DNA of 64,000 nt. Source: Holothuria scabra. Taxonomy: Eukaryota > Echinodermata > Holothuroidea > Aspidochirotida > Holothuriidae. The notes beneath the pieces are model-generated. The model did not search any database. It was not told the origin of the DNA and saw nothing but the letters and a program-made list of their open reading frames with translations. The stretch is from contig CM074179.1 of assembly GCA_037179385.1 (NCBI GenBank), positions 38,367,224-38,431,223 on the forward strand. The letters run 5' to 3'. The first letter of the stretch is position 1. Every line of letters starts with the position of its first letter. The translations under genes were made by a program, and so were the position numbers. Shown here in pieces: positions 6,350 to 59,905 of the stretch.

Positions 6350-6352
6350 ATG
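6350..6352 (+). CDS. Proposed start codon at the 3' end of exon 1
   Basis: The bases aacaATG are followed directly by a good donor (gtgagt at 6353). Splicing to 8127 is phase 0, so Met would be followed by Ala-Ser-Arg-Arg. An A at -3 and the G that follows after splicing make a good start context. The related fish proteins I recall also begin only a few residues before the 'PEEA' segment, which fits. Exon 2 has no ATG of its own. The 5' limit of exon 1 is not visible. Transcript data would settle this; an earlier exon cannot be excluded. Confidence 0.5.
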
Positions 6353-8126
6353 GTGAGTTAAGGCTCTCTTTTTAAGTCTTAAGGGCAAAATTTTAGTCCA
6401 TTTTTGGTCAGGCAATTATCTTTGCCATATGCTACTGAACATTCAGCACTGCATTTTTGTATGCACTGTAGACTTCCTTTAGGCTTAAGTACTGAAGCCT
6501 AGTGTTATGTTGGGTACATTAGTGTGTACATGTACAGCCTAAGCTGAAGTTATAGATACTGTATGATAGACTACAGCCTGCACATGCTAAACCTTCAAGT
6601 TAATTGCTACGTACTGTATTGTATTGCAGGCATGTATAGGCTTCTAAAAGTGCACATTATAAAAATTTTAGCATTCAGGAACAAATAAGTGATCTATAGG
6701 CCTACATGTGTCCTATCATATAGACCATGACTAGGATTCAGATGGGGTGACTAGGATTCAGATTGGGTAAGGGCCGGGGAAGGGGAGGGAGGGAGAGGGA
6801 GGGTATATGCTGCACCATCATGGACCTGGAACCTTTTCCCCACAAAAACTGACCATTGCTTATAAACTACTGTATAATTGGCACAATTGCAAAACACCCC
6901 ACCAAATTGAAGCTCTGTTTTTTTTCATTAACAGACTACGGGACTATGCAGTCACTTGATTTGACTCTGTGTCCTTTTAGCCGGGCTCCTGTGATGTCCT
7001 GACTATAAATTAACTGCGTATCCTCATAGCCTCTTATAATTATATCCCAAAATTCCGACTGTGTATTCTTGTAGCCTTTTAAAAGGAAATAGTTGAGCTA
7101 CACTAATTGTAAGCAGGTTACTTAAAAAAAAAAAAAACAGTGATTCTCTTTGTGTACCCTTGAAGCCTTCTAAAAAGATAGTTTGACTGAGTGCATATCA
7201 TCGTAGCCCTAAGCTTGCCCATGCGATTGACTGTGTATCCTTGTAGCTTTTTAATATAACACACTCCTTTTTAAATTTTATTTAAGAAAAAAAGAAACTG
7301 TGATTCCCACTCAGTGCATAACCTATTAGCCTTCTTATTGAGTATATAGTTTCAAGACTACGTATCATCATAGCCCCTAATGTCCCGTGATTCTAGCTGG
7401 GTATCTGACTAACTTCTTACATTATATCTGCATAATTGTGACTATATATCCTTGTAGCCTCATGATTCTTGTATACGACTGCATATCTGCATAGCCTCTT
7501 TCTGTACATCTCAATAACATTGATGATGAGTCAATCTCAAATAAGAAATACTTAACAGATAAAGTCTCAACTATTTCTTCCAACATCTTACTACATATCC
7601 CTTGCCTTTTCATGGGTTGGTAAATACTTCTCTTTTGAACCTAGAATTAAATTGCCTTTTATAGGCTAAAACAAATTTTTGAACTTATAATTATTTTCAC
7701 TCAAACAGCAAAACGAAGATCCTCCTTGTAAAAGGATCGATTCAGGTTAAATGCAGAATATATGGTTTAGGATATTGGGCATAGGATTCTGTAGCCATGA
7801 TAGAGCTTGGTTTAGGGATACAATAAATTTTAGTCAGAATCTTTGGTCTAACTTTCAATCTTGTGAACCATATACAGCATACTGTGTACTTTATAGCTCA
7901 AGGTAAAACCTGCAACTGCAGCAATGCTTTAATAACACTTTGGTAGCATAGATAGCTTTGGCAATTCTCAAACTTCAACATGCACTCAGTGGTAAACTAC
8001 CAATAATTCTATCTATAGTTAAAAATATTTTCAGCATACATGACTTTTGCTAATCAAAAAGTTTATCTTGTTACAAAGAGATTTCAAATTATCATGCACT
8101 GCACCAATGTTCTTTAAAATTTATAG
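6353..8126 (+). other. Intron 1, largely a degenerate tandem repeat
   Basis: Begins gtgagt and ends with atttatag. The middle (about 6935-7510) is a decayed tandem repeat described separately. A G/A-rich patch lies at 6770-6800 and an A run at 7124-7137. No exon-like frame is seen inside. Confidence 0.5.
6935..7510 (+). repeat. Degenerate tandem repeat with unit like 'gactgtgtatccttgtagcc'
   Basis: The phrase 'gactgtgtat(c/t)cttgtagcc' and variants recur at irregular steps of about 45-75 bp, for example near 6965, 7011, 7057, 7145, 7190, 7229, 7310, 7350, 7438 and 7478. Copies vary in the middle and between units, so this is an old minisatellite-like array. No protein frame is conserved across units. 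Confidence 0.6.
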
Positions 8127-8243
8127 GCTTCAAGACGATTGAGACCAAGAAATGTTAACAGTCCCATTGAAGAAGCAAGGCAATACTGTGCAGAAGGGAA
8201 AGATAAAGCTGGTCTTGAAAAAGGTTCATAAATGAATACATTG
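8127..8243 (+). CDS. Exon 2: N-terminal part of KMT5A-type SET domain (one-base frame break)
   Basis: Acceptor atttatag precedes it. In frame it gives ASRRLRPRN, then SPIEEARQYCAEGKDKAGLEK, a KMT5A-like lead-in ('PEEA...GKDK'). As written, the frame then hits TAA at 8226-8228. If one A is added to the A5 run at 8218-8222, the exon continues RFINEYI and ends at an excellent donor (gtgagt, 8244) in phase 1, exactly what exon 3 needs to form GWGVF. The expected family pattern at this spot is a hydrophobic-rich segment before G-x-G-V-F, so the lesion is real relative to the family. A weak donor (gttcat) at 8224 would also join in frame but would drop about seven residues. Confidence 0.8.
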
Positions 8244-11139: not shown

Positions 11140-11293
11140 GATGGGGTGTCTTTACCACCAAAGTAAGAAGGAAGGGAGAGTTTCTTTTGGAATATGCAGG
11201 AGAAGTAATTAGCCACAAAGATGCGGATTCTAGGGAAGCAATTTACAAGGAGATAGGGCTTGGAAGTTTTCTGTTTTACTTCGGAAAGTTCTG
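11140..11293 (+). CDS. Exon 3: SET domain core, cofactor-binding half
   Basis: Phase 1 in, phase 2 out (donor gtaagt at 11294). The translation starts GWGVFTTKVRRKGEFLLEYA and continues GEVISHKDADSREAIYKEIG, ending in FLFYFGKF. GWG corresponds to the G-x-G of the S-adenosylmethionine site and EYAGE to the conserved Y-x-G-E strand of SET enzymes; the spacing matches KMT5A-type proteins. The frame is open across the whole exon and both junctions are strong, so this part is intact. The role assumed is histone or protein lysine methylation; the substrate cannot be read from sequence. Confidence 0.9.
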
Positions 11294-15996: not shown

Positions 15997-16195
15997 TATT
16001 GATGCAACAGAAGACACTGGAAGGCTGGGAAGGCTTGTAAATGATGGGCAAGGAGAAGAAGAAAACTGTGTGATGAAAACTGTAAAAGTTGATGGTTCGA
16101 CATCCCCAAAATTATGCTTATTTGCCAGAAGGGACATAAGAGAAAATGAAGAGCTGAGATATGATTATGGTGTTGATGATCTGCCATGGAGACAG
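15997..16195 (+). CDS. Exon 4: SET domain C-terminal half (post-NHS region)
   Basis: Phase 2 in, phase 0 out; donor gtaaga at 16196. The translation runs CIDATEDTGRLGRLVNDGQG, then NCVMKTVKVDG, then KLCLFARRDIRENEELRYDYG, ending DDLPWRQ. This matches the KMT5A pattern 'C-x-DAT...RLGRLINHS...RDI...GEEL-YDYG'. The aromatic YDYG near the active site is kept. The usual NHS triplet reads NDG, so the His that helps hold the cofactor pocket is absent; I recall ND at the same place in related fish KMT5A-like proteins, so this may be a subfamily trait rather than decay. Confidence 0.9.
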
Positions 16196-27772: not shown

Positions 27773-27994
27773 ACTGAAGCTCAGAACAAAGCTGCAGAAC
27801 AGACTCAAAGTACAGATGAAGGGGATAAGCTCACAGAGGTTTCAGAGTGCATGGAAGGCAGCGTCACTTCTGAAACATTGGACCCACAGTTACATCACAT
27901 AAGCAGTACTTTGCACAAAGGTGATGAGTTTAAGCTCCCGATGCTTGTTACAGAAAGGCCCAACCTAGTAATAATTCCAGTATGTTTAGTATAA
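27773..27994 (+). CDS. Exon 5 / linker frame after the SET domain
   Basis: Acceptor ttttcacacag; phase 0 matches exon 4. Reads TEAQNKAAEQTQSTDEGDK..., an acidic, low-complexity linker, then MLVTERPNLVIIP and ends with VCLV and TAA at 27992-27994. The recombinase frame (shifted by -1) is open from 27931 and its first Met is at 27982, so the two frames overlap. One extra base anywhere in 27931-27993 (for example in the T run at 27985-27987) would make a continuous exon. A donor-like gtatgt at 27980 could instead end this exon and send the SET half elsewhere. Confidence 0.65.
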   Translation, partial: TEAQNKAAEQTQSTDEGDKLTEVSECMEGSVTSETLDPQLHHISSTLHKGDEFKLPMLVTERPNLVIIPVCLV

Positions 27995-30970
27995 CAAGTG
28001 AAGCTGGGTTTGATGCTTACTTCAACAGTTATGAACCTCCAAGTAGGGAGGGTCTGCCAAACAATCCATCTTGCTCCCAACAACAAACTTCCAACACAGT
28101 AAGCCAGGATGAAGCTGCGTTTGATTCTGATTTCAACATGTGTGAATCATCAAGTACAGAACATGTGTCAAACAACTCATCCAGATCCCAACAACGTGAG
28201 TCCAACAAACAAAGCCAGGATAAAGATGCTGGCAATTCTGATCCCAACCCATGTGAATCTGCAAATGAAAAAGATGTGCCAAACAATCCATCTGTAAGAC
28301 TAGCTTCTGACGTGAGTAGCCAGGAGGATGAAGCTGTTGATTCCGATTTCAACCTTTGTGATTCTTCAAATGAAGAAGATATGTCACATAACCCTATAAG
28401 CTCCCAGAAAGTAACATCCACTGGAACAAGACAAAGCAAATATGCCTATGATTCTGATTTCAACCCATTTGAGTCTTCAAATGAAGATGAGTCAAAAGAA
28501 CCATTAAGCCCTAAGATTTCAAGACCAATTAAAAGGAAGAACAGTAGGAAATGTTCATTTGAATCCTGTGAGTCATATGCCAAACTCTCTGGTTCATCAG
28601 ATGATGAAAGTATTGCTGAAGATATTTTTGCTATCCAACGTGAACAATTTATTGAGCAGTCACAAGATTCAGATATTGTGCCACCTTCAGATTGTTCAAA
28701 TGATGATGCAGATGGCTGTAACTCTCGATTTGACTTTCGTAACATGACATTGTCTGCTCCTAGTGCCTCTTGTGTTCCAGTTCAAGTCGCTGATGTTAAT
28801 TCAAACCACATGTCATTTTCAGATGATGATCCTGATGATCCAGATTATTCTTTTGATAATGATGTTCATTCCAACGATTATCAAGATGATGAAAGTAGCA
28901 GTGGAAACTTCAAAGAGAGTACTTGCTCTGAGGAAAGTGATCATGAGCAGATGAAGAGATCAAAAGTTAAGAAGGGAAAGAAGGTGCCTAGTGCAGAACA
29001 ATCTTCCTTGCCTGCAGTTGTTTCCTCTTCTTCACAGGTTCTGAAAGTCACAAGCAGAAGAAAATCAGATATTTCTGACACTGTGGATAATTCTTCTGAC
29101 CATAATTTTGAACCTGACTATAATGAGGATAGTGACAGTAGGAGCAAGCAGGATTCTGAAGAGAACTCTTCAGGGGAAGGTAAAATCAAACAAAAGAATC
29201 AGACATCAAACATTAAGAAGAAAAAGGGAATGCCTGTTCCAGATTCATCAGTGGTATCTTCTAAAATGAGTGTGCTTACAACAGCTAACAAAAAGAAGAG
29301 AATTTGGGATAGACACAATATTTGTGTTTTTTGTGAAGAAGGATTTTCCAAGTTGCCTCGTCACTTTGAAAGAAATCATTCCAGTGAAAAGGAAGTTGCC
29401 TACATTCTCAGTAAGGATAAGAACTCAAAAGAGAGGAAGTTCTTATGGCAACTATTAACAAATAAGGGGAATCATGCACATAATGTGATGGTTATTAGCA
29501 AAGGTGAAGGCACATTAATCCCTGCGAAGCGACAGTCATACATCACTGACGTGGGGGATTACCTCCCGTGTGAACATTGTTTAGGATTTTACATAAGGTC
29601 AGACTTATGGAAACACCACAAAAATTGTGCAGCTGTGAAGTTATCAGGACTTCCACTAGCAAAAGGGAGAGTTCAAGGGAGGTCAGCAATGCTACTTCCA
29701 ACACCCCAAACTTCAAATGAGGCTTTTCGTGAACAAGTTCTTTCAAAAATGAACAATGACAACATTGGACTGACTGTCAGAACAGATGGTCTCATTTGTA
29801 AGTTTGGTCTTAAACTTTTCATGAAATTTGCTGAACCTCATCAGTTCCAGTATTGTGCTCAGAAAATGAGGCAACTTGGAAGGCTACTGGTGACCATGAA
29901 AGGCCTGTTCCCTGGAAAAATCAGTTCTCTAAAGGATGCTATACACCCGAAAAACTTTGGTGATGTAGTTGAAGCAGTACGACAAACAGCTGGGTTTGAT
30001 CCTGTCAGTAAGCAGTACAAGACTCCATCACTTGCCTTACAGATTGGGTTTTCACTCAGAGCAGTTGCAGGTATACTGAAAGCTGATGCTTTGAAAACTG
30101 GAGACAGTAATGAGCAGGAGGCAGCTGAGCGCTTTGATAAACTTTGTGGTCTGGAATGGAGTCAGGAAGTGTCTCATAATGCCATCAAGACTCTTGAGAA
30201 GAGAAAATTTAATAAACCACAAATGCTGCCCTTAGGTGAGGATGTAGCGAAACTAAGTCGCCATTTGAGAGAAGTCTCTAAGAAACATTCAGAGCTTTTA
30301 CATGCTAATGCATCAGATAATGAGTCTTGGTATATTCTTGCAAAAGCTACATTGGCTCAACTCATATTGTTTAACCGAAGGCGGAGTGGAGAAGTCGAAA
30401 GACTTTTATTAGAGGAGTGTAACAACATTACTTCTGAACTGAATGAAGATGTCCTCAACAGCCTCAGCAAGTGGGAACAAAGTCTGTGTAAGAAACTTAA
30501 GAGACTAGAAATCAGAGGGAAGTGTGGGCGCAAGGTACCCATTCTAATGAATGAAGCCCTCCATTCCAATGTGCAGAAGCTGATTTTGACCAGAAAAGAT
30601 GTTGATATCAGTGATACAAATATTTACTTATTTGCTAGGCCATTCCCATCGCAACATCCAATACGAGGCCATGACTGCATACGTCAGTTTTCTGTAGAAT
30701 GCGGGGTATCCCATCCTGAGAACATAACTTCTACCAGACTGAGAAAACAAATAGGGACAATGTCCCAAGTTTTCAACTTACAAGACAATGAGATGGATAT
30801 ATTGGCCACATTTATGGGCCATGATATAGCTGTGCACAGAAACTACTACAGACTGCCAGAACAAACTCTCCAGCTAGTTAAAGTTTCTAGGATCCTGTTG
30901 GCAATGGACAGTGGCAAAACACTGGACTTCAATGGAAAATCTTTAGATGAGATAGAGATTGATATTGATG
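27982..30970 (+). CDS. Large exon: acidic repeats, two zinc-finger-like motifs, tyrosine recombinase domain
   Basis: A 996-codon open stretch ends at a strong donor (g|gtaagt, 30971). Numbering from Met 27982: five repeats of about 37 residues start near 10, 47, 84, 119 and 156 (core DSDFN-x-CESSNE). Residues about 170-430 are Ser/Asp/Glu-rich with Lys patches (KVKKGKK). Fingers: C448-x2-C451...H461-x4-H466 and C530-x2-C533...H545/H546...C549. Recombinase part about 600-970: FNRRRSGEVE (R801 as the first catalytic Arg), GKCGRKVPIL (K847/K851 hairpin), TRLRK (R921; the usual His is T918), MGHD (H947), HRNYYRLPE (Y956, nine after H947, as in XerD-type enzymes). Such proteins cut and rejoin DNA through a 3'-phosphotyrosine. 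Lack of introns and its fold suggest descent from a Crypton-like or other recombinase transposon. Confidence 0.88.
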
Positions 30971-31018
30971 GTAAGTTAGGTTTTTCTTGTTTTCCACTGG
31001 ATTGGTGTAGGCTTTAGA

Positions 31019-31110
31019 CCAGGGGCGGGATTCACTATGAACAGGAGAACCGAGGTTCATATCCAGTTAATCACCGGTGAATTTATAGAACAGCAAAAGA
31101 ACCGCCGTTA
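31019..31110. repeat. Repeat fragment starting 14 bp... after the exon-6 donor region
   Basis: CAGGGGCGGGATTCACTATG opens right after the in-frame stop that follows the donor. The part 'ttcactatgaaca(a/g)gagaaccg' recurs inverted at about 49985-50010, at the edge of the element copied there. It looks like one terminus of a short DNA transposon. A second end was not found. Confidence 0.4.
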
Positions 31111-35504: not shown

Positions 35505-36284
35505 ATAATGAGTAGCAAAACTGCTATTAAATCAAAATTTCAAAAACAAATTGCTCCCTGAGTGATTCCTATTCCAAAGGCAAACTGCAGCAAGTTAAAC
35601 AATGATTGGAACTGAGTGAAAATTATGTCACCAGTAAAGTGAGGGATGATTTAGCCCTGACTGGGGCTCACATCACACTTATACCTACACCTATGGTAGT
35701 ATTTACTTCAAGAGGATGAAAGACCAGTACTTTGTACTATGTGCAGGGAGCTGCCATTGCTATGTGTGTGACTGTCGCACTTGATGACTCTTATGAATAT
35801 TCACATATTTGCAAGAAATACTACGCACTGACCAACCTAACAACCTAACTTGGACGGACACATTTCCCCTTATAATGGGCTTTCTCAAGAGAACTCGAGA
35901 GTAAACATAAGTTTAGTGGCATGACTCCTGCACTTGCCTTGATATTTTAGTGGAAATTGACCCTGCAATTTTTACTCTTTTTAGGTAATTTTACACCAAA
36001 ATTGTACCCATTTTCTAGATGACACTAAATAACACATTTACTGTATGTTGGTGTGTGGGTCGTTAAGTATATATCCCATCAAAATGAAGTGTTCTACATA
36101 ATTTCAAGCACGGGCGGCGTTCATGGGGGGGGGGGGGGTGATGGGGGGATTTACATATTCCCAGGTCGAGTCATAAAAATGAAACCTTCTTCCATTGTGC
36201 GTGATGCTCGGCATAAGCAATGGAGTAGAGAAAACAAGTCTTGAACCCAACAGGTTGGAAACTACGCCGTAAAACATTATCTAA

Positions 36285-37265
36285 AGGTACGTTCAGACGT
36301 GTCCGGCAGCGGCAACGACAACGGTAACGGCAAAAATATACCACACAATAGAAAGTGAAAGACTTTTCACACTAGCACGGCAACGGCAATGCGGCAATCG
36401 GGTAAAAATGCGTCCGGCAAAAAAGTAATCGCACATGGAGCGATTCAACGCCATTTGCCGTACGGCAAAAAATTCTGCCAACTTCAATATGCGCAAGCAG
36501 AAGCCTGTCTGACGGGCGGGAGGCAACGTTAAGGGATAGGGACGTTCTGTGATATCCCGCCAAAACAGTGCACAAATTTGAATGCGTGCAACTACAAGAT
36601 GCCTCGAGGATCTGACTTATCTGCCCAGTTTATGGAAAAACGGGTCATTTTATTTGGCTGACCCGACCTGACTTCTAAGACTTCGACTAGCCTAATGCAG
36701 TAGCGTAGGAAGCAATATGAAAGTGGGGGCGGAACAATTTTTGACCATGCACCTCACCTTATGAAATGCTAACCCCATTTTTCTTTCAAATGAAACTGCG
36801 CACTGAAAAGGTTGAATTATTCGTTTTTGCCAGCCATGCTAAAATGGACAAGTATTCCAGTATATATATGCCCTCTGCAACAGTGCGACGGTGGCTTAGC
36901 TAGACTTTTTTCCGTAAGGGAGGGGGGGGGGGCAAGCACCCACATTTTCTGATAACACTGTCACAAAAGTATTTGGCTCAAGTTCTGTTCAGATCTTCAT
37001 TGTCAAATTTAATTAAACTGCTGTAACCATCTTCTCCTCTTCCGCCTGTTCTTCCGATCTATTTGGTACGCTACTGCCATTACCCGCCATTGTTCGATAA
37101 TCAGATAATGGAACAAATTTGTCAGCATCAAATTCCGGTCAGTATCATCCGGTAAAATTTTTACCGTATGCGACAATAATTTTTGTTGTCATATGTGAAC
37201 AACTAAGCCGGATTGTCATTGCCGTTGCCGTTGCCGTTGCCGCTGCCGTATATGTGAACGCACCT
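36285..37265. mobile_element. PIF/Harbinger-like inverted-repeat element, 981 bp
   Basis: Left end aggtacgttcagacgtgtcc and right end, reverse-complemented, aggtgcgttcacatatacgg, followed on both sides by a long inverted stretch of cggcaacgg-type hexamers (about 60 bp arms in total). A 3-bp TAA lies at 36282-36284 and 37266-37268, the target type of PIF/Harbinger elements. Inside the right arm, ttgccg is repeated four to five times (about 37218-37246). No transposase frame. Confidence 0.7.
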
Positions 37266-40200
37266 TAACTAACTTACTAATCTGCCATACAAATGCTCTG
37301 TTTAACCCCCAATATTATCCTTTGCCTTTAGTCCTCCCCTCCCTCCTCCCCACCACTTTTGCAACATTGACATTCTGGCACCGCCATTGGCCGTGAACAT
37401 ATAATCGTAGCCCCCGAACTATATTTGAAAATGCTAAAATGAAAGGAAACTTCCGAAAAGACAGTAACAAAATCTTGGGTTAGCGCGGAAATGTGCAATT
37501 GTTTTGTGGTAAAGAATTTAGAAAACAACAGACATCATGAATAATACATGCATGGCCCCTTATTTCATCCCTTTTTTCCGACAGTTCCGGCCTCCTATGG
37601 TAAGTTCCGACACTCTTTTACATCGGTTTAATGCATCATTGAGTTGTCGAAACATAGGATAGTCAAACATAGGTGTGTCAGAGTAGGGCAAGTAATCCAT
37701 TTCATCGGTCTCTCAATGTAAACTGAGGAAAAATGAGTTTGAAAAATTAATTCACCAGCAGTCGTAAATTTATATCGCGCCAGTGCCGACGAACCTGGGG
37801 AAGAGTCTTCGGGGGATCAACACCACCAATGAAAAAATGGATGCATATCAACCCCCACCTCAATTTCATATATATATATATACCTAAAATGTATATCAGA
37901 TTGGGGGATGTGCTTTATTTTGGACGTTTTCTTGTAACTTCGACAGGAGGAGACTCAAACGTGAAATAACTATGCTGTGTTCTCCATGAACACATACCAA
38001 CAACTTAACTGACGTTCATGTAGCAGAAAAGCATTTAAATCGTTGAAGAAATTTAGAAAAATTACACAAGGCTAGGCTGTAAATTCGCCATTTTAATACG
38101 ACTCGTCCACGTCGACCCTTGCACTGGGAAATCGAAACAGACTTTAACAGTCGACGTACCATAGCAGTGGACGCGTTCCGAGGCAAGCTGGTTGACTAGG
38201 ACGAAGCCCATGTTCACTCAATCGAATGCTCGGTAATATCTCCAGTCGACGTGCTATCTTAGATCAGAAACGCATATTCTTTAATAGTCCCCCAACTTTT
38301 TAAATTTTCTTACATGAATCCCAGAATATAAATTATTTTTGCATCACAAGCTCCGTATTAACAATTTTTTTTTAAGAGCAACCTAAGCGCGCCTCATTCA
38401 ACGTTCCACGTCGTATACAGTCGTGTTAACACCTTAGAAAAAATTGGAAAATTTGGGTGCTTGTCCCCCCCCCCCCCTGCAGTGGTGTCACCAGACTTTT
38501 CATTTTAGGGGGCATTGGTGGCATAACAATTTTGCAGGGGGTACTGCTGGACTCCACTCATGGCCCACCGAGATCGTTTTTTCTTTTCAAACTTTTCCAC
38601 ACTCTACCGACTACAACAACTGAGTGAGGGTGACGTACACCTCAGGTAGCAGTTCAGGCAGGCTTAATCCTACATCTTTCCTTAAGAGAATCGCACATTT
38701 AACTGCACATCAACTGCTTTGTATTTCTCTCTCTAGTTCAGATCCCCTTCTTCAAAATGTCAGCCGGATCCGCTCGTGGGAGTATGTTTCACTAGATTTG
38801 TTATCAACAAAACCTTAATTGAAGTTGCCCTAGGCTGGAAGTAATTTTTAGACCAGTGTAAAGACAATAATATTACTTTTAAAATACCACGTTAATACGT
38901 CGCAAAACTTTAAAAACTCAGGAGCTTCCAGTACTTCGCCCTCTGGACCCCACCAAGACACTCCCATTGAACTGCCCATCAAGTTCTTTCTCTATAGTTC
39001 ATCTCCCCTTTTCACAATGTTAGCCGGATCCAATCTTGGTAGTAGTTCCACTTGATGTTTTACCAAATATCTTACTTGAAGTTACCCCGGAGGCAATTTT
39101 AGACCAGTGCTAAGTCAATAGAATTACCCTTTAATGACGACTTTAACCTCACAAAAACCTTAAAAATCCAGAAGTTCATGGGGGATTTCTCCCTGCCCCC
39201 CCCCCGGGGCTTTGCAGCTGGTCCCCACCAGGGGCCTTAAGACTGACTCCTGGAATCCACCTGATGAGCCTCGCACTTTACGTGCCCCTCCCCCGGCGAC
39301 GCAACTGTCCTCTAGAAAGAGTCTAATTAGGTCACTGCTTTCATTGTTAAATGTATTCATATATTTCTGCACTATGTGACAGATAAATTATCTACTCTAG
39401 TTATGGATTCTACTCTAATTACCGCAATTATGATTGCGATCGTCACAATTATTTTTTAACTTCTCACTATCATACTGCTCAAATTGTAAAGAGAGTTGCT
39501 ACAAAAGACAAAGTACATCTCCATTTCTTCATCGCTAAACGAATATATTAAACTTATAAGAGCCAAGCAGTTAACCGTTCTCAGATGTAACTGAAACAGC
39601 TCTGTCTTCAACGTTTGATTAATCATTCACCCTCCTGGGAGCTGTCAATTCAAATGGTAACTCTTTGATTTGTCGACATATTCCGTGAACACACGGTACT
39701 TACGAAGTCGCATAGAGCGAGAGAGCGAGAGATGCTTATGTGAACATATCCGGTAGCACGCATCGAATATCCGGTAGCTCAGTTGAAATACCCGGTAGCA
39801 CAAGCGGACGATGCGGTAGCACGTCTTGTTAATGCTAAAGCTTGTGCTAGAGGTGCCATGGATCTTTGTGGAAAAGGTGCGATAAGTGCGCTTCTGAGGA
39901 GTTTAGATCACTTCTTCTCTTTGGATGGGAATGCACTTGTTAGGAATTCAGCAACCTACCGATTGAGATGTACCTAGTTTGAACAAATCATGGGTAGTGG
40001 AGGCAACGTACGAATTGGGCCGTTGCCGCCAGTCAGATGTCCCCAATAAAGAACCATATACCTATCCTGAAATATATTTTTCACAAAGGTTTACTAAAAC
40101 TCCAGAACTTCTGGGTAACCCCCTAGATCCCCCATGAGGCTTTCTCCCCATGGAATCCAACAGAATATCTTAGCAAGCCCTGAACCCCATTTGCTAAAGG

Positions 40201-42699
40201 CACTAAATGTAGCTGTCCCGAGACTCAAAGTTGCCATCAAGAGATATGTTAAAACGTCAGAGCTTCGCCCCATGGACATCTACCAGGTTTTTTGTCCATA
40301 GACCCCACCAGACTGGAAGTAGCACCCACTGTACCTACATGATACTCTAACAATGCAGCATGCAGGGGCATTGGGCATCCCCCCCCCACCTCACAACAAC
40401 AATTATTTATCCTAAAAATAAATAGGCACTTAACCAGTTAACCAACACAAATTTTACTTCTTTAGGTAGCGTAGCCTATGTGGTACCAGATTGCATGTAA
40501 GACTACCCAATTTCTCAAAAATTTTCAAATGGGATGAATGGCCTTACTGACCCCCATCGGGCCCTCCTCTTGTGGTGCCATTTCCTTAACTCCTAAAACT
40601 ACGCAAATTTGTCGAATTCCAAATTTTTCTTCAATAGGTTACATCTAAGCCTGGTACCGAGTTGTAGGCTATGTAAAGGCATCTGTTCAAAACATTCAAA
40701 GGGAGGCCCGTCTCATAGACTCGTTTCCTGGCTGGCATAGACGTAGCCTACTGTACGAGACAGGGGCAGGAGCGAAGGCCAGGTGCGGTGAGCAATAATT
40801 TGCTATTTATCATGCAAAAGATCAAGAGTTAGAGCAGTCATATAGAAAAATTCGTTGATTTAGCGGAGCTTGAATTAAGCCATGAGTCACAGTAGAGAAA
40901 CAGCATATTTTCAATTCCGTTGTGGTTTTCCGGAAAGATTGACGACTTTTTCATCTAATGGTAGTAGTACATTTGATGTGGTTATTGGGATACATTTCCG
41001 ATCACATAATTCAGTCAAATAACCATGGATTTACACCCCTGAGTAAAGAGAGGACATCAGCATGGTTCAACTCTTACCATGACGATACTATACTTCACTT
41101 TGTTCAATATTATATAAGAATGATACATTTGCCCTGCTATTAACTGGAATGCTTGGAATGTGTGACAACGCTTATCCTCCGAATAACTTCAGTAGAACAA
41201 GTGATGGAATTCCCAGTTCAGTGACGCACACCACCCATATTTTGGGATGAGGTCATGAACTGACAGATTTAGACCGTAAGAGAGGTTGTGTATTTAGCTC
41301 TTGGAATTAGTAAAGATAAAGGTAATTGCTAAATTGGGGAAAATTGATGACAGAAGAAGCCTTGTCTTCACAGGTTTTTATGTAGGTGTTGCCCTTAATA
41401 TGTATCAGTGGTTTTGCAAATCAGACCACTGATTGACATACATGTTTGGTAGGTATACCAGGGAGGTGTTCCGACCTGACTTTAAGCAGTTAGGTGAGTT
41501 AACGTGAAGGTCAAATTGTGTGCTGCCCAGAGTTCTGCCGCTCATTTATCATGAGAGTACTTAACAGCAAAAGATAACATATGTGACATAGACTGTCTGC
41601 ACTAGTAAACGAAGTTGTACTGCCAAGAGATACGGCAGAAATCTATTAGGGCTGTTATACGACGTTTTGCATTTGAGAATGCCTGCGCATTGAAACGTTT
41701 TCCGGTGTTTTAAAAATTCTTCGCACATGCTGATTTTCCATGTAATCTATACATGCATCTTCTCACCCAAAATGCTGAAGTAGCACCATCTCAGAGGTCA
41801 CTGATTTTTAGAAATTAAGTCCACATAACTTTTGAATATTCGCACATCAATGCGGTCAACAAGATCAAGACTTGTTGCATTAAAACCTGTTTTAAGCGGC
41901 CACAATGTGTAAAAAGAACAACGATCAAAGTTCTTATGCACGAGGTCAGTCCCGTTTTATAATGTGAGTTGCACATACTATGATACTCTAGTGAAATAGC
42001 CTGCAGTGAAACGTAGCATACATGCGCACTACCCCCAGCCAAATCATTTGTATACTTCGTTGAAAACTAGTGATTATTGTATTCACTGTACTGCACACCA
42101 TACCCAACGGCCCACTAACGTAACCTGCCGACAACTTCACACATTTTACTGTGTTCTTTTCAGTGCATTGAAACGGCACATGAAAACAAAAACAAAACTC
42201 AAACCAGATCAGGCGGAAACATACACAAACATCTTCACACATTTTACTTCTGTCTGCAAAACTGGAAGAAAATAAAATTAATGTGTTCAAACATGCATTT
42301 CAGTCACAATAAGGCTGCACATTGAGTGCCTCAGACCTAGGCAAAGTTCGGCTAAACAACAAAAACAGAGTCAAGCCGCGTGACAGTCTCAATGGTCAGA
42401 TGATCAGATCTCTGAACGGACCCTCGGCACGAAGTTTAACTCGTTGACGGGTTAAATTATTACCCTGCGTTGGCAGGATAGGTCATTCTTTACATTGCTA
42501 TAAATTTTCGGCAAAAACTGAACATATGTCCTTTTTGTGGAAGAAGAATCGTCTGTCAGTAAAGGGACGTAATTGAGATGTAGAGGATGTATTACAAATG
42601 AGTTTTAGGTCTAGGCCTTTAGGCTAGGAGGTAGAGAAATTAGGTCATGGACTGGGAACAAAGAACGACGCTGTGGAATTTAATTGGATTATTATCATT

Positions 42700-42721
42700 G
42701 GTTTTTTTTTTTTTTTTTTTT
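42700..42721. repeat. Poly-T tract
   Basis: A T run of about 20 bases followed by catttt. There is no adjacent retroelement body or target duplication that I can support, so it is listed only as a homopolymer. A short GAAA microsatellite occurs nearby at about 43168-43192. Confidence 0.6.
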
Positions 42722-44367
42722 CATTTTGAAAACAGAAAGAATGGTAGGACTTACTGTTGAATTTTAAAATTAAGTATTTGTAAAATGTCTGACGTTAGGA
42801 CTGCACATTTCATAAAAGTGTTCTCCCAAAAAGTATTATAACAGGCCTAAAAGTTATTCAGCACTCCAAACAGTTCCAGTTCTCCCAACCCTCTCACCTC
42901 TAGTCCCGCCCTCAACTGCATGTATTGCTTTAACCTCAACTGCTGCAGCAGTTTGTTGCCCCGCCCAAATGTAAGTGTAATCTGCAGTTTTGGAATTTTA
43001 TCATGTCGATCAAAGAGGTGTACCTTTCATCTAGGTTTGGGCTAGACCTTAGTTCGGAAAATAAATTCTCTAGGTTTTATATTCGATGGACGGGGACAAT
43101 TAGGTTTACAGCTCGAGTTCGTTAAGAATATCGACGGAGACCCAGGAATATATGCTTGGTACATGAAAGAAAGAAAGAAAAAAAAGAAAGATATCCTCTT
43201 AAACTACGTAGGCTAAAAAGTTTGCCCATACCAAAGACCACGGTGTTCCTCGGAACTTCGTGGCTCAGTTGCTTTCATTTCAAAGCATAGCTGCCTGGGA
43301 TAGATTTTCATATGTTGTTCGATCGCCATGCAGTTTACAATTTTTCGACATTTCACGTTCAAACAGTTTAACAACCTGTTCTCCTAATTTATAGCACATA
43401 TGCGCATAATGAACCTAACCTCACCTAGAAACGTAATATCCTCAATAATCCGTCTCCTTACTGGATGAGCCGTACAAAAATAGAAACAGATTTCGTTGTT
43501 TATTTTTGCGATTTAAGCACTTTGCATCAGACGGTTAGCAGAGTTTTTAGAAGTTGACGAAATATTTGCACCTATTAATTAGGCTAGCACGTAGGCCCTA
43601 ATATGACACTTCAAGTAGGCCTATGTGAATTTGCTTTTTAATGGACATGACAGCATGTCCATTACTATGGTCAGTCGCATTGTCTGATGATCACGTGAAT
43701 ACATTTCTTTCGTTCAATTTATCCATGGGCGTCACCAAAGGGGGGATCGGGGTGCTACCCCCTTTGAGTTTTTTTTTTTTTTATTTTTCAGTTACAGAAA
43801 CGTTTAAGGGATGTACAAAAAATCGAAAAAGGACTCTCTTCTGCCGTTGCAAAGTATATATTTCTTCTAAGACTGTAAGATATTGAATGCCTAATCTCGC
43901 TGCAATTACAGATCGAGTCCACCAAATTACTATTACTAAGTGCCGTCCCCCAGCAAGTTCTACTGGCTATATGTAGATTCACCTTTCCATAGTATTATAA
44001 TCAGATATCTAATTATGAAATACCTCTAAATGATATTTTTGAATGGAACAATCATTTTTATTGAAACTATATTAGAATTTTGTTCATTTGGGTGGGTAAA
44101 CTGTGTCATGTCAGTATAGCCTCAGTATGCCTTAATTTTAAAACGGAAGTGCATCTGCGGGATAGGCCTATTCCAAATTAACTTAAAATCTCAGTGAAAA
44201 AATAGTTCAAAGGATGTTGATATTGTTGTAGTAGTCTACTGTTCTGAGGTTTTTAACATAACTAAACATAGACCATATGCTTGTCTGTGTTACAAATATC
44301 CACCTTTGACTTAACGGTGCTATATGTCAGTAATAAGTTGTTTTTTCTTGATCGGATAGTATCTTGA

Positions 44368-44392
44368 AAGTACTACCTCGGAGGTAGTACTT
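44368..44392. repeat. Near-perfect palindrome with 12-bp arms
   Basis: aagtactacctc and gaggtagtactt, separated by one G, form a perfect 12-bp inverted repeat. A further partial arm (tagtactataaagaggtag) follows at about 44399-44417. It may be a relic of a short inverted-repeat element. Confidence 0.7.
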
Positions 44393-45920
44393 CCATGATA
44401 GTACTATAAAGAGGTAGTTATCACACCAAAAGCTGTCGAGTAAAAGGCCTTTCAACTTTAGGAAATGATGATACGGATATTTAAGGAATAGGCTAAATCG
44501 CATTTGGCTGACTGTTAAGTATTATGATGAATATACTGTGGAGGCTCTAAATCGGCGAAGTCGAGTCCGTTATGTTGCTAATTTGGAGTCGAGACGGCTT
44601 ATGAGACGGTAATGGTCAGACAAATGTGGTTTATTCCTATTATACCACCGAAAATATGTGAACAACTTCATCTAAATAACTGTTTTTTGTGTTTTTACGT
44701 TTATTGACCGTGTGTAGTGAAATAACAGGCCAGTTCAATCAATCAGAATGCAGGATTCTCAGTCAAAAACGGAGGGTAGAGGTGGTAGAATTGAAAATGA
44801 ACTTCCTTTTATCTTTGCATACGTCTCAAACTGAGTGAAGGGTCACTCATTATTCTAAAATTCAACTAACTTCTTCTGTTCTCCATCCGATTTTTGCTCT
44901 GCGTTTTAAACTTTAATCTTCCCGTTACTTTTTGATAGAATAAATTTAACTATTTTCTAGCTCTTGAAGGAGAAAAGTTGAAAGTAAAAATCAAAGTACA
45001 TTGGAAAAATCCCATTGTGCACAAATTACTGTTTTGTGGTATAGAGCCTGATATCTTGAAAGAATAGTCCAGAGTCAAATTTATTTTTGATATGTTAAAG
45101 AGGAACATATTCTAAGCATTCAAGTGAAAGTTGCATTCATTTCCCATGTTGGGTTTTCGAGATAGGCCTATTAGCAATTGAAGTTGGCACATTTTCCAGA
45201 GAAAGTGAACTTGAAGCAAACAGGTGTGATGTCATGTTTGAGGTTCATTGTTTCTACCTCCTAAGAATACTTCATTACATTCCGTGGTTTTTAGAGTATT
45301 TTTGTTCTAGGAACCATTTTCCACAATAGCCCCGGACTTTATAAGAAAAACGTTCTGGTTCTATTTTCATTTCAAGATTTAAAGCATTCATTTCACCGCA
45401 CTATAGGCATTTGAAATGTTCAACTCCTCAGAAGTTCCGGAGGCTTTGCCCCCTGGACCCCCACCGGGGCTTCGCCAATGGACCCCACCATGCGACAATA
45501 ACTTCCTTCTTTGCGCAAAATACAACCCCCTTTAAAAATGTCTGGTGACACCCAATGGATGCTATCGGACGACTCCCATCAAGAAACAAACCAATCTTTT
45601 TTGAAAAGTTTTGCACAGCAAAGTAGACGGGTATATGACAAGATTGTGAGAAAAATGTCGCTAATTACGAAATGTGGGACATTTTTCCTCAAATGCTCTA
45701 CATTTAAATATTAAGTGGGCTAATTACAATATTAAGTAGGCCAATACGCCTGGTACTTTGCATATGACGCAGTCATAAACGTGGGGTGCTGTCCTACTTC
45801 GGTCTGTATTTTTACTGATCAATTTATTCAGAACTCTTTGGTGGCCAAATTTATTTTACATTTGATTTACAGAGTGATTTTAAAGACAGCTGTATAAATT
45901 TGAAAGTCGGGCCTGGGGCC

Positions 45921-46018
45921 CGTTCCACAAAGAGTTACGCACGATCTTAAGTATGATTTACTGTTGGCTTAAGTATGGTGAATCAAACTTAAGATTGTGC
46001 GTAACTCTTTGTGGAACG
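45921..46018. repeat. 98-bp foldback element
   Basis: Arms 45921-45961 and 45978-46018 (41 bases) match as reverse complements with three mismatches; they begin cgttccacaaagagttacgc. The spacer is 16 bases. G/C-rich words (ggggcc, ggcctcc) lie just outside. A transcript would fold into a long hairpin. No protein coding. Confidence 0.8.
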
Positions 46019-46160
46019 GCCTCCTGTTCATATAATTTTCTTCTGGTAGTTTCCTGGAATTTTGGCGGCGCGGTATGACGCGATGTCTCCGTTTGAACTG
46101 AATACAGTTATAAGGAATGTACAAAATGTGTACATAGCAGTAGCATATATATAATACAAG

Positions 46161-47295
46161 CAGTGGCGTAGCCAGGTCTTTTTCACCAGGGGGCACTGGG
46201 GGCCACAGACTTTTTATAGGGTGGCACAACATATAACTCAGGGATAATTATGGTGAGACTGTCAGAACAACATTTTGTTGAGTCTGACTGACAGCCAGTG
46301 GCGGCTCGTGGTCTAAATACATAGGGCAAATTTGTATTGGTGGGAATAAACCAACGGCGCCCAAGGCCCCGTGGGAGCGCTTCGCGCTCCCCCCTACGGC
46401 GTGAGGTCCAGGGGCCCACCATAGGGCCCCTGGTGGGGGTCCAGGGGCGAAGCCCCCGGCAGCTCCGCGATATTTACAAAATTGGGGTTATAGAACCAAG
46501 CATTTCTCTGCCTTTACATAGCATTTAATGAGCATTAAATTGACTGCAAACGTCACCATTATTTCATTGAATTTAGTCTTACAACTGGCTCGAGGTTCCC
46601 GTGGCTATGACAATGCATTCGTCTTTCTTTGAGATGAGCAAACATTTTAATTACACGTTGATTAAAATTTGAATTTTCTCTTATGAACTTCTTTTCAATT
46701 GATAGCATAGCTAAAGCGTTTAACCTATCATCATTCGTACTTAGTGTACCAGCTGGGTGAAAACCTACGTGAAGACGATACAGACAGTATTTGCGGCCTA
46801 TGTGGTCCTAATCGTTTGCTTTCCAATTTTTCTCCAAGACTCCTCTTTGAGAACAGACAAGTTTGTTAACTTTTGACAGTATTCATGTTGCATTCATGTC
46901 TCACATTGAGAGGGTTTTGGGAGCTAGATGAGACTTAACACATGAAGAGCCCCCAAGCATGGACAATTGAGTGCACATGTATACCCAAGCTGCATTAGCC
47001 TTTAAACCGCAGCATAGTTTCCTACAAAGGATACACAAGTGACTGATTAATGCGTTCTTAGTAACCGGAGTATGCATACAGTGCAACGAAGCGAGACCAG
47101 GCAGGGAGGGCAAGTGAAAGACTGCTCGTAGTTCGAAGGAATTGGCCACTCACCTTTCATCATTTCAGCCGATAAAATCTAAGTGCGCATGTTCACAACA
47201 TGTTGAGCGGGGCAGATTGCAATGGGATGGGGGGCACACCTGGGGGCACAACTTTGCTGTGGGGGGGGGGACGTCCCCCAGTGGCTATGCCACTG
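46161..47295. mobile_element. hAT-type element, 1,135 bp, older
   Basis: Ends CAGTGGCGTAGCCA (left) and, reverse-complemented, CAGTGGCATAGCCA (right). The flanking octamers aatacaag (46153-46160) and agtaccag (47296-47303) agree at six of eight positions, as expected for an old insertion. A nested fragment beginning cagtggcggctcgtgg (46299) and the 'gggagcgcttcgcgctccccc' region continue to about 46490 and match the core of the element at 3487 and 50012. No transposase frame. Confidence 0.7.
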
Positions 47296-47515
47296 AGTAC
47301 CAGTGCCGGGTTTGGCGCAGCGTTCAGCAGTAAAAAGTGTCCTTTGCGCTCGTGTAAAAGCAATGTGATGGATTGAACGAAGTTTTCTAACGTGTTTTTC
47401 AGAATGTTTTACAAATGTTGCTCGTGTATACAACAAGCCTAAAGGCCTGTATATACAAGCAACATTTTCAAAACATTCCAGAAACATCCACCTGCAACAA
47501 ATCCAAAACATGCTT

Positions 47516-47686
47516 GTTTTCGGTTTGTTGCACAGTGTAGACAGGGTGTACAGCATGTTTTGAAAATGTTTTGAAAATGTTTCAAAAGAAATGTCCTGTC
47601 AATTCTTTTCAAAACATTCTCAAAACACTTTCAAAATGTTTTCCGATTGTTTTTACTCTGTCTACACTGTACAACAATCCGAAAAC
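47516..47686. repeat. 171-bp foldback with 29-bp arms
   Basis: Arms 47516-47544 and 47658-47686 (gttttcgg-t/a-ttgttg...) match inverted at 27 of 29 positions. The interior has recurring aaaacattt / aaatgtttt words in both orientations, so much of it can also pair. It lies outside the hAT-type element that ends at 47295. Confidence 0.75.
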
Positions 47687-50011
47687 AAGGATACATATTT
47701 ACGTAGAGGTAACTTAAAATAAGTGCAATGGAACTTTAATGTGTATGATGTCATAGAACTCTTGTTTTCCCAACATGTTTTCCTAAAAAGATCGGTATGC
47801 ACACAATTGTGATTGCTTGCAGTCATGTGCTTCATTGCTTTTATAAATTCTGCCATTCAACCGATCATTACCACCGATTATTTGCAAACTGAAATAGGGG
47901 CTAAAATATACTTGAAACTTGCCCACTTTTGTAAAATTCTCGTAAACTCAATCCTTTAACTTTCCGCCAAAACGGGATCCATTGTTAATCACAAACGTAA
48001 AATTTTATCCCTGCCATGGAAGTGATCGTTAGATATTTTCCGCTATAACGCTGTAGAATTACATGGAATTAGATTTAGAATTGCATTCAATGTGTTTTCC
48101 TTGCTTTCTCGCAGAAAGCGCCACGAAAATTGCTGTACAAACTGTTCCGCACAAAACACATGGTACAGACTATCGAGCTGAAGTGTTTCGCCTTTTTTCC
48201 AAATCCCCAAGCTTAGCATACACGTCTGTAAGTCTGTGCACGTTTTTTGCACGTAGCTCCTAGAATCTTGTGAAGTTCGCGATCGGCAGTTATTATCTGG
48301 AATAAATTATTTCTAGCATTCCTTCCGTAGTGTTATTTACAGTTGGACTTATGCAATGTTGTCATGCGACGTCATTGCAAACAAAAACAGTGATGCACGT
48401 GGTCTCATTCAGCGAAATTCTTGGCCCAAGCATGCAGTAGACTTTCGTGAGTGTCCGTTTTCCGCCAAACAAGGCATCATGTTTTGCTTGGTGACATCAT
48501 ATGCATATAATCCATTTCAAAATTTAAACTGGTCCCTGCATCGCGATTGGTTCAATTGCGTTGATTCTAACCAGCCAATCACAACTCGCGCCTTCCCCTA
48601 TGTGATTTAGTGTGTGAAAATACTCGATCAAGACAAGTTTTCCCGTTGAGTATGTGTTACGACGATCGCACTTCCCATGCTTATATAGCCGGCTAGCGAA
48701 GCAGGGTGAGCCCCGTGCCAAATTCACCGGGAAACGGCATCACAAATCTCTGAATGCGTACATCGATTTTTGGGGGACCTGACTTACGTGCATTTCAGTT
48801 GCAGGTTCTTTTTAAACAAGACGTAAGTTTTGGACAAGAACTGCAAATATACGGGGATATTTATATCCGAAAGAAACCATAAGATACGTTAATCAGTGCG
48901 ATTGTTATGCTGCCCAGAACTGCTAGAATATCATGAATGATTGCTCTACATGGGGTTCGTTCCGACATGATTGGGGGATAAAAAATAGCCTGAATATGAT
49001 GTTGGCCTAAGAACTAAATTATTAAAGGACATGTGACATCAACTGCAAACAAATCTACTGTATGAACAGTTGATTTGTATCTCCACTTTTGAAGTGAAAA
49101 TATTACGCCTACAAAAATGATGTCCCGTTTGTGAAACAAACGGAAATATTCTCAGTATTTTCTAAATATTGCAAGCCGACCCAATCATGTCAATTTTGGT
49201 GAGCAACAGGCACGAAATAATGGCCGACCGGGGGACACCCCTCTCCCTATACCCCTCCCTTAGGCCGGCGATCCACCTAGTATGGACGCATCATATGCAC
49301 GACTTTCAATTCTAAACCCAGGCAAAACCCTGTTGCTCCTTTTTCGGAAGGAGCTAGACTTGTCACCATTACCTTTATTTTCTTTTGTGTGTTTTTTCAT
49401 TGAAAGCATTTTCCCCCAACCTGTTCACAGCTTTTACACACACATAAATATTTGTCCATGATTTACCAACAAGCAGTGCAATATTATGGCAATATTATTA
49501 GCTTGCTACTGAAATAAAAAATACCCTGCAAGTGCTCTAAGACAAGTGACAATTTATAGTGCTATTTTCACATTACCATAGCTTCCTTTACTTCACAGCA
49601 AACATGTGAAACCAAATTCTTTCCAAATTCTAAAAACAGTACACGAAAATGAACTTGTAGACCACACAAGACATCTGTGTAAATATTGGGTCAAACCACT
49701 TGAGCAAGAAGCCATTAGTGTCTGCCAGCAGGCCTGGTAGAGAGGTGGTGGGTAAGATTGATTGCATGACAATCCTTGGGGATTGAAACCACAAAATCTT
49801 GGCCCTGCTTGTGACGGCAATCAACTGGGAATTCACTGACGGTTAAAGAATGGTAAATCATCGGTTCCTCCAGGTTAATCTGACCCTGGAATTTTGGAGG
49901 TTTACCAGTAGAACCGATTTTGTGTAGGTGGATTTTATGGAGACAAGGAGAAGAACAGACCTTTTACCGATTTTGTGCAAATTTATCGGTTCTCTTGTTC
50001 ATAGTGATTAG

Positions 50012-56861: not shown

Positions 56862-57077
56862 GCAGGTGTGCAGAAGTCACCAAAAAAATTCCACAAACTA
56901 GAGATTCCAGAAGTGAAGGGACAGAATGTTCCAGAACTGTAGCCAAACCTTCCAGTAAAACTGCACCTGCTAATTGTTCCAGCAGAGTATTATGTCAGTG
57001 TCCCAGAAGGGATTCATTGGATGAACATTGCAGTGGAGGTTCATTGACTGCAAGTACCAGCAAAGATCCCAGGAATG
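56862..57077 (+). CDS. Exon 9: basic, Ser/Cys-rich spacer, 216 nt
   Basis: Acceptor after a pyrimidine-rich tract; donor gtcagt at 57078 (weaker than the others). Phase 1 in and out. The translation opens RCAEVTKKIPQTRDSRSEG and later has CSSRVLCQCPRRDSLDEHCS, with Ser, Arg and Cys dominating. Length is a multiple of three. It has no known motif apart from clustered Cys, and it is less acidic than exons 7 and 8. Confidence 0.8.
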
Positions 57078-59675
57078 GTCAGTAATTGGAGTAGTCTTGC
57101 TCATGATGCCTTTATAAGATGTATTCATGGAACTCAAAACTAGTGTTGATCCCATTATCAGTTGCTGTTATTGGTATGGGCTAATAATGGCGTTATTGGT
57201 TGGATATTGGTATCTGTAAAATGAACAGTTGCTGCCGATAACACTAACTGATATTTCACATGACATAAGAATGCTCAGACTTTTCAAGTGCATGCAGAAT
57301 TCTTTACGTATTCATGTGATTGCTGTCACTCATATTGGCCCTGTTGTATAGTAATTACAGAGGACATGAGCTTAGCATGCCGCGCCACCTGCAGTGAATT
57401 CAGCCATAACGTGGAGTGCACATGTCTGCCAAAACAGGACCAAAACTGAGCTGTATTCCCGCATGAACAGTATATGCGAATGTCCTAACAATGTGCCTTA
57501 ATTCTGCTCGTAAGACATGCCTTTCCCAAGTTCCCCCCTGAAAAAACCCCTTAATTAATGGTTAATCGCATCACTATACTCAGTCGTGCCAAATCAACAT
57601 TGCGCCATGTGTGAAGTGCTTAAAAAAGACCATTAACTCTGTAAATATTTCTTTCAGTTTTCACCAAAACTGCGCTCATACGAAGTCTTTTTGATGGCAG
57701 AACAAAAGGTGCCTGCATGGAATTAGCAAGAAGCTAGCTAACTCAAAAGAATGCATGAATAAATAGTATAAGATTGTGTGAGTGATAGTTCCGTGCCATA
57801 CGGATACTAGCAAAAATAAAATTGTGCAATGACATAATTTTCCGACGTTCATGAGAATACCCTGTCAGATTGGCAGAAATTGGGCTTGTATTAGAGCACC
57901 GAATGTTTACAGTAGCTTTCTTTTTGCATCACAAAACACCCAAAAATTCAATCTAATGAGATATGGGCCTTTATGAGTACTCACTGTTGTTTTTAATCAC
58001 ATTTCTTATAAGTTTATCCGATTTGAAATGAAACAAAACGATTTCGTTGAGACAACATGAGGGCCAACACTCGTCTAGCAAACTTGGCTTGTGCTATTTC
58101 AGCTTAGCGTTCTCTGATGATTTGTGATCCTTGTATTTATGCAACTTTTAAGAGTATACTGCATGCTAAAACAAGCCCATACTTGTATGAAGGAGATTCA
58201 GTAGCGAACACAGCACAAGGTCATTGCTATTTTCAGCAGGCCGTAAACATTCACAGCGAAATGCATTGTTATGGCGCATGTGCACTTCATCGGAAATTGG
58301 GAGTTTATAAGCAGTGATGGCCGGTACAGCCATAGCATGAGATATGCCAATTTGAGTTGTAACGGTACTGCACATTTTGGCTGGGATTGAAATAAGTGTG
58401 TTAGGCCTACAGTACAGTAGAAAAGTAGAACCTCTGCAAGTAAATACACCTTTATATTTTCAACTTGAATGAATTAGGGTATTGGCAGCTTTTGCAGATA
58501 TGCAAGTCTGAGCTTCACTAAGTTAGGTATACCGTTAGTGCATGCCCTTGGCAATGAACACACATGGTCTTGTAGCCTACTGTACTAAATGTAGCTTGAC
58601 TTTCTTTACATGTTTTACTTTGTTATTGGTATTGGGCCGATACTAAGTTTGACATACCAGTTATCGGCAAGTTCTGATATCACTGTTATCGGCTCAATTC
58701 TACTCAAAACTAGCTGTTACGAACTTGAGAAAAAATGCCTAAATGATTAGAGGCAGTAGACTCCACCACCAGATTGCTTATGGACAATCAACACACTCTT
58801 TCAAATCTCATATTTGCCTTGCAAGTACCTCTGAACATGTGGTGTCTTGAGCAACTGCAGGTTTTTACACCTCTAGTCATGTTAGAGAGGATTTTGCATA
58901 TCAGGAAAACAGCTTCTTGCTGTAAAATTTTGAATGGAAGTATCTAGACATGTTTGAAAGAGGGAGGAAATAGCAGTAACAACAAACAATATGATGGGAA
59001 ATGTAGAAGAAGACCATTTTATGTTCAATTTGCATCTTAATGTCTGTTTTGTTGAAATATGATATTTTCAAAGTGGAAAACGGTTTTTTACATAATCACT
59101 GAGACACAATATTAGTTGTATACTGCAGTAAAATCCTCTGTTTCCTTTCACTATTGAATGGATTTTGACATGTATAATCCTTTTAGATTTCTGTCTTAAC
59201 TTCATACCAGGGTAGTCCCTCAGATCTTTAATGTACTGTAACAAATTCTACATTTCAGCTTTATTGAGAATTCTTCAGGATTTTAACTATCACAATTTTA
59301 TGTGGATACTAGTGTGATGATACCCTTGAAGGAATGAGCATAACATTTTACTACCCAGTAATTAGAAAAAATAGGAGGTGAACCAGAAATGCCCTCTGTA
59401 ATTATTCACCATGTATTTCTTAAAGCAGGGAGATGCATGTGCATGTAACCTCCTTAATATGTTTGAACTTACCTACTAAGCATAGGACTGGTACCTGTAA
59501 CAAAAGCTAATACCAGTATTTGAAATTCAGAAGTTTAAATATCCACTTTGCAGACACATACTGTACTTAGCCCTTGCTATATCTATTTTACATTAATTTT
59601 CACTTCGCTAATTGAGTCGCAGTATGCTGGGTTTTGAGTTTAATGAAATCTACGAAACAATTTTCTTTCTTACAG
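57078..59675 (+). other. Intron 8
   Basis: Starts gtcagt, ends ttctttcttacag. Contains the hAT-like element 57141-58702; the remaining 1 kb has no gene signal. Confidence 0.6.
57141..58702. mobile_element. hAT-like element, 1,562 bp
   Basis: Flanked by perfect 8-bp repeats ctcaaaac (57133-57140 and 58703-58710), inside a longer shared context actcaaaactag. Ends TAGTGTTGATCCCATTATCAG-like on the left and, reverse-complemented, TAGAATTGAGCCGATAACAG on the right, with gaps, so the inverted repeat is imperfect. Both ends carry 'ttggtat(t/c)gg' words in opposite orientation. No transposase frame. Confidence 0.72.
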
Positions 59676-59905
59676 GGTTAAAGAAAGGCACAAAGAAGAT
59701 TACAAAGAAGAGATCATGGAGTGATAAGGAAACAAAAGCTGTTTTGAGACACTTTCAGAAATATGTTCACCTGCATAGGGTACCAGGAAAAAGAGAATGT
59801 GAAACATGCCTGGAGAAAGAACCAGTGCTCTGTGACAGAGATTGGAAAGGAATCAAGTATAAGGTTTATAATCTTATTCAAGAGCAGAAAAGGAAAGGAA
59901 AGTAG
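59676..59905 (+). CDS. Exon 10: conserved Trp/Cys C-terminal tail
   Basis: Strong acceptor (ttctttcttacag); phase 1 in; stop TAG at 59903-59905. 76 residues after the junction: a basic lead-in (KKGTKKITKK), SWSDKETKAVLRHFQKYVHL, then RVPGKRECETCLEKEPVL and DWKGIKYKVYNLIQEQKRK. The pattern W-S...E...V...VPGK-x-x-C-x-x-C...EP...W-K-x-I-K-x-x-V is one I recall at the end of uncharacterised recombinase-like fish proteins; the spaced Trp residues suggest a Myb/SANT-like DNA-binding fold. It is basic and would suit nucleic-acid binding. The upstream ATG at 59612 belongs to intron, not to this exon. Confidence 0.85.

Follow-up and report, generated by a model that had tools for sequence, protein, structure and literature searches.

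A Holothuria scabra gene joining a SET domain to a tyrosine recombinase probably belongs to a giant DNA transposon with ends at TG tracts

A 64,000-nucleotide stretch of the holothurian Holothuria scabra genome (GenBank assembly GCA_037179385.1, contig CM074179.1, positions 38,367,224 to 38,431,223 of the forward strand), here called the window, contains a gene of seven exons on the plus strand (6350-59905). Its joined model comprises 1,372 residues, with X placed at two one-base breaks. The predicted protein combines, in this order, a KMT5A-type SET domain, an acidic linker, two Cys/His zinc sites, a tyrosine recombinase (YR) and a homeodomain/Myb-like tail. In window numbering, the parts of the gene are:

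6350..6352, plus strand: coding part of exon 1 (start codon), placed by reading and splice fit
8127..8243, plus strand: exon 2, where the SET region begins; one-base break near 8218 in the window copy
11140..11293, plus strand: exon 3, SET domain (Pfam PF00856, E 5.6e-5)
15997..16195, plus strand: exon 4, C-terminal half of the SET domain (Pfam PF00856, E 4.9e-7)
27773..30970, plus strand: exon 5, with the acidic linker, zinc sites and YR; one-base break near 27940 in the window copy
29323..29628, plus strand: two Cys/His zinc-site motifs within exon 5
29773..30912, plus strand: tyrosine recombinase, core-binding and catalytic domains
56862..57077, plus strand: exon 6, supported by phase and GT-AG borders both here and at C1:52.5M
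59676..59905, plus strand: exon 7, homeodomain/Myb-like tail and stop codon

The first-pass annotation of the window had placed SET and YR in one gene and one protein, and a second copy at C1:52.5M bears this out. Read unaltered, that copy runs through 1,373 codons including the stop, with zero internal stops and GT-AG borders at six of six introns. At the level of sequence this confirms that the SET-YR gene is real and is one gene encoding one protein. The two one-base breaks, likewise reported at first pass, are present in the window but local to it, as neither occurs in the copies at C10:42.5M or C1:52.5M. Since the C1:52.5M copy is intact, both are specific to the window copy or its assembly, and they may be either mutations or assembly errors. 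The Pfam family matched by the window exons (PF00856) represents SET domains in general.

A search of the genome (1.19 Gb, 31 contigs) located exon 4 three times: in the window, at C10:42.558M (100% identity) and at C1:52.581M (99%). Window segments 5975-31032 and 50006-65161 are contiguous at C1:52.55-52.59M, with 99.5% and 98.9% identity, and the same two segments are joined at C10:42.5M (99.3% and 97.2%), where a partial tandem piece shows 95.2% identity. The similarity of the three copies spans the introns and stops abruptly at both ends. Their outer flanks are unlike, save for TG tracts; the window and C10 copies also lie in the same host repeat family. The sequence between the two window segments is:

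31033..50005, no strand given: 19-kb insertion nested within intron 5, foreign to the element and absent from both other loci

This insertion has inverted repeats CACTATGAACA[G/A]GAGAACCGA and a 3-bp target duplication, ATT (31030-31032 and 50006-50008); we take it to resemble CACTA/EnSpm elements. The SET-YR gene is the sole gene recognised inside the copied unit of about 40 kb, and eight further open reading frames (ORFs) of the window gave zero matches to Pfam families over the cut-off. Intron 4 holds two 1.7-kb direct repeats (17390-19080 and 22906-24607; 97.2% identity), which are also found in the other copies and contain one-mismatch variants of ACAGAGGACCA, a motif forming part of the terminal arms. 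Directly past the right end of the unit lies a 145-bp satellite array (20.8 units, about 65183-68235 in window numbering), and similar sequence also occurs on the right flank of other copies.

The left end of the unit is composed of three short features:

5975..5989, no strand given: TG tract (target)
5995..6018, plus strand: left inverted-repeat arm; its partner lies beyond the window at 65104-65127, with 21 of 24 bases identical
6024..6042, plus strand: subterminal motif common to both element families

The second family named here was traced through equal-scoring YR matches, and its YR is 39% identical to that of the window. Copies at C7:11.1M and C10:13.3M are 99.3% identical over 20.6 kb; SET, YR and tail follow in the same order as in the window gene, and TG tracts again mark the ends. 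Both ends were also read in the copies at C7:0.47M and C12. The arms of family 2 are inverted repeats as well (17 of 24 bases), and only 11-13 of 24 bases agree between the families. The right arm of family 1, allowing up to two mismatches, occurs three times genome-wide, once per copy. In the seven copies from the two families, each of the 14 ends is accompanied, no more than 75 bases outside its arm, by a (GT)n run measuring 9-29 bases. As a background, (GT)4G or its complement was present in 506 of 200,000 random stretches, which were 30 bases long and so do not give the same measure as the 75-base end zones.

With up to one mismatch, the subterminal motif is found at 11 places in 1.19 Gb (control, 0), three in family 1 and eight, on six contigs, in family 2. 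Seven of the 11 are the left ends inspected, and the other four lie at the YR distance expected for family-2 left ends. (GT)4G lies no more than 30 bases from seven of the eight family-2 left ends; at the eighth (C10:13.3M) the GT run is further out. When the family-2 right end with its adjoining TG tract served as the query, there were 184 matches, register shifts counted, and those listed fall at no fewer than 56 distinct places on contigs C1-C11. The surplus of at least 56 right ends over eight left-end motifs suggests that there are probably many internally deleted, non-autonomous relatives.

The genomic YR search returned 85 matches, which merge into 60 loci on 20 contigs; these counts are lower bounds, as 78 of 333 first-look candidates were scored. 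A SET match lies upstream on the same strand within 60 kb at 26 of the 60 loci (two of the 26 share one SET match). Seen from the other side, 27 of 53 SET matches detected with Pfam are so placed relative to a YR, for which the chance would be about 0.0015 per match if they were independent; one SET match is downstream of a YR and one on the opposite strand. Several loci share the same SET-YR spacing (6.27-6.39 kb in six, 13.1 kb in three, about 14.6 kb in two and 35.4 kb in two), as is expected of copies of a whole gene.

The interrupted target can be examined in the host repeat. In four of the seven copies (window, C10:42.5M, C10:13.3M and C12) the flanks give the picture of a host repeat interrupted at its TG tract. 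Joining the two flanks of the C10:42.5M copy gives a sequence with uninterrupted counterparts at two other places, 82.9% identical over 292 alignment columns and 77.0% identical over 244 (gaps counted). These unoccupied sites are other members of the host repeat, and thus paralogous rather than allelic.

The fusion is also predicted in other animals. A search with the joined model yielded 23 proteins, ten of them with SET by Pfam. Profile searches gave 307 proteins at E <= 1e-5 (120 listed) and 71 at E <= 1e-10, in overlapping lists; both scored only about 8,000 candidates sharing most words. Among the first 141 proteins, a count that includes isoforms and near-identical loci, 97 match both the window SET and the window YR, and 93 of these also match the tail. 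Hosts of the SET-bearing proteins include Strongylocentrotus, Patiria, Acanthaster, Crassostrea, the frog Ranitomeya and many fishes. The same domain order recurs in proteins predicted for echinoderms, fish and a mollusc. The first-pass annotation would have been refuted if no species had both domains in one protein; instead, such proteins are predicted in several phyla. SET distances track YR distances (Mantel r 0.96, 53 proteins), also beyond 30% YR divergence (r 0.87, 21 proteins), with 0 of 999 permutations reaching the value in either case. Therefore, it is reasonable to propose that the fusion is old and has been passed on as a unit.

In fishes, Alosa sapidissima has five near-identical loci, each on its own contig, and no two of these contigs are equally long (YR 99.7-100%, SET 99.4-100%). 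Misgurnus has nine (YR 98.4-100%, SET 98.8-100% except for one locus at 89-90%), and both Misgurnus and Brienomyrus have an additional second family at about 48-50%. Judged from the predicted sequences, this pattern fits recent amplification of several families. In the YR tree, the sequences of grass carp and other cyprinids nest among those of percomorph fishes (79-84% identity), possibly through horizontal transfer or as a result of old paralogy. The zinc-site/YR module is also predicted together with FHA (plus SET), kinase, BRCT or, in salmonids, chromo domains (P0006, P0008, P0016, P0159, P0194-P0198); these combinations could be either gene-model fusions or repeated captures of chromatin and repair domains.

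An alignment of 63 proteins, near-identical loci included, revealed which residues are kept. The zinc-site residues C676, C679, H689, H694, C758, C761, H773 and C777 are each present in 63 of 63. The recombinase has the fold of YR and type IB topoisomerase enzymes, with core-binding and catalytic domains, and 62-63 of the 63 retain its Arg, Lys, Arg, His and Tyr; their catalytic roles, that of Tyr1184 included, we presume from the motif. Their conservation in the predicted sequences argues for a functional recombinase. The SET domain of a fish relative (P0003) finds its best solved-structure match in KMT5A (E 5.9e-28), the next family being KMT2A/HRX (7.5e-16). In KMT5A a His follows the conserved Asn, and the SET domain of family 2 retains this Asn-His motif. 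H4K20-type mono-methylation would be a first guess for the activity of the SET domain.

Taken together, these data indicate that the window very probably holds one copy of a giant YR DNA transposon, about 40 kb long without the nested insertion, which encodes a protein with SET, zinc sites, YR and a DNA-binding tail. As expected of a DNA transposon, its copies are dispersed, have fixed ends and differ in their flanks, and there is an empty site, albeit a paralogous one. The first-pass annotation had envisaged a chromatin protein of the host. This part of it is not supported, because a gene that recurs with its introns at three loci with 97-99.5% identity, between inverted-repeat arms adjoining TG tracts, has the look of a mobile element.

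Several observations weigh against this interpretation. Among the copies, an open frame is demonstrated for C1:52.5M alone; those in the window and at C10:42.5M bear indels in coding exons, which at C10:42.5M are not those of the window and in one copy are many. C10:42.5M consists of partial copies in tandem and contains a 100-N gap; each of its ends is supplied by a different partial copy, which makes these ends less certain. Since four of the seven copies lie in one host repeat family, duplication of that repeat could explain part of the likeness of the flanks. At 34 of the 60 YR loci there is no SET match in reach, so that these are either fragments, diverged copies or SET-less relatives. 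The His position of the HxxR motif is Thr in 63 of 63 proteins; strand transfer is therefore not assured, and this family-wide oddity of the sequences speaks against a canonical active site. Likewise, the conserved SET Asn is followed by Asp in all 55 proteins with residues there (two more are gapped). The evidence from fishes consists of predicted proteins, and the support as a whole is sequence.

Among the alternatives, the one that survives best accepts a mobile YR element and treats the SET exons as acquisitions from the host that splicing joins to the YR exon only on occasion, so that the fusion protein would not be the working form. It would account for the 44 of 141 relatives and the 34 of 60 genomic YR loci that lack a SET match, and for the FHA, kinase, BRCT and chromo N-terminal domains found with the same YR in some predictions. 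We nevertheless consider it unlikely, as 97 of 141 proteins match both domains, the reading frame of the C1:52.5M copy continues uninterrupted and in phase through all exons, and the SET residues are conserved while SET distances follow those of the YR.

Still less probable is a host chromatin gene, an ancient SET-YR fusion with a domesticated recombinase, that was copied by segmental duplication. Segmental duplications are not expected to share one type of end across two families whose YRs are 39% identical, as is seen here in the TG tracts near 14 of 14 ends, the inverted arms, the empty site and the 11 left ends. According to PMC3212892, neither the catalytic Tyr nor the second Arg survives in domesticated Crypton genes, whereas both are kept here in 62-63 of 63 proteins. 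What a host gene would explain are the large introns and multiple exons, the co-evolution of SET and YR over deep time, the fact that many gene predictions bear the names of ordinary loci, and the partial tandem copy at C10:42.5M. Finally, that two adjacent genes were merged by eye and by prediction pipelines, for which the two breaks of the window copy might be cited, is hardly credible given the open C1:52.5M copy, the same order in family 2 with a 6.27-6.39 kb spacing in six loci, and independent annotations in several phyla.

If the unit is indeed a YR transposon, its movement can be envisaged as follows. The recombinase would bind both arms and bring the ends of the element together; the element would leave as a circle with the joint right arm - TG core - left arm, and would enter the genome by crossover with a genomic TG tract. 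The recombination site of known YRs consists of two inverted arms around a short core, as described in PMC3212892, and by analogy the arms would flank the TG core on the circle. The role of SET is the least certain step. It might methylate nucleosomes at the donor or target, whereby chromatin could become permissive for synapsis, silencing could be delayed, or excision could be tied to replication so that copies are gained.

Beyond this locus, we lean towards the broader view, with clearly less confidence, that the sequences represent an unnamed superfamily of giant intron-bearing YR transposons in deuterostomes and molluscs. Its members would have been recently active in several lineages and would target TG microsatellites, and the recombinase itself would be a histone methyltransferase, bringing its own chromatin writer to the cut-and-paste site. 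Searches of open-access full texts in PubMed Central gave no paper recognisable as a description of a SET-YR protein or element; bioRxiv, Repbase and subscription papers lay outside this search, and the element may be catalogued under another name. To our knowledge, it would be the first DNA transposon whose own recombinase has a histone-methyltransferase-type domain. If the proposal is correct, many SET proteins predicted in fishes, echinoderms and molluscs and labelled "uncharacterized" are genes of one mobile-element superfamily, a link between chromatin marks and transposition becomes directly testable, and a YR that inserts at TG microsatellites is a candidate tool for the insertion of large DNA into the genomes of animals.

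Among known systems, KMT5A/SET8 resembles the SET domain most closely, as judged from the fish relative P0003; unlike it, the present SET is fused to a YR, has Asn-Asp for Asn-His and is dispersed in many copies. SETMAR/Metnase, a primate host gene, also fuses a SET methyltransferase to a DNA recombination enzyme. There the partner is a mariner (DDE) transposase, whereas the present fusion uses a YR and is the gene of a multi-copy element. Starship elements are likewise giant and classified by their YR; they are fungal and have many cargo genes, and we know of no SET-YR fusion in them. DIRS/Ngaro elements use a YR in animals too. They are retrotransposons with reverse transcriptase, whereas the eight further ORFs of the window gave no Pfam match over the cut-off.

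Cryptons share with the proposed element that a YR moves the DNA. According to Kojima and Jurka 2011 (PMC3212892), they are YR DNA transposons, reported from sea urchin, acorn worm, medaka and a limpet, with a proposed circular intermediate, no terminal inverted repeats and short (4- to 6-bp) terminal direct repeats. Any such short overlap would be masked here by the TG tract on each side. At E <= 0.01, a Pfam comparison of 23 members did not return the Crypton YR/DUF3504, and Cryptons were compared by description only. Three of the four residues of their R-H-R-Y tetrad are present. In comparison with Cryptons as described, the present elements are distinguished by a length of 20-40 kb, multiple exons, a SET domain, zinc sites and a tail, as well as by inverted-repeat arms, a TG-tract target and Thr for the tetrad His.

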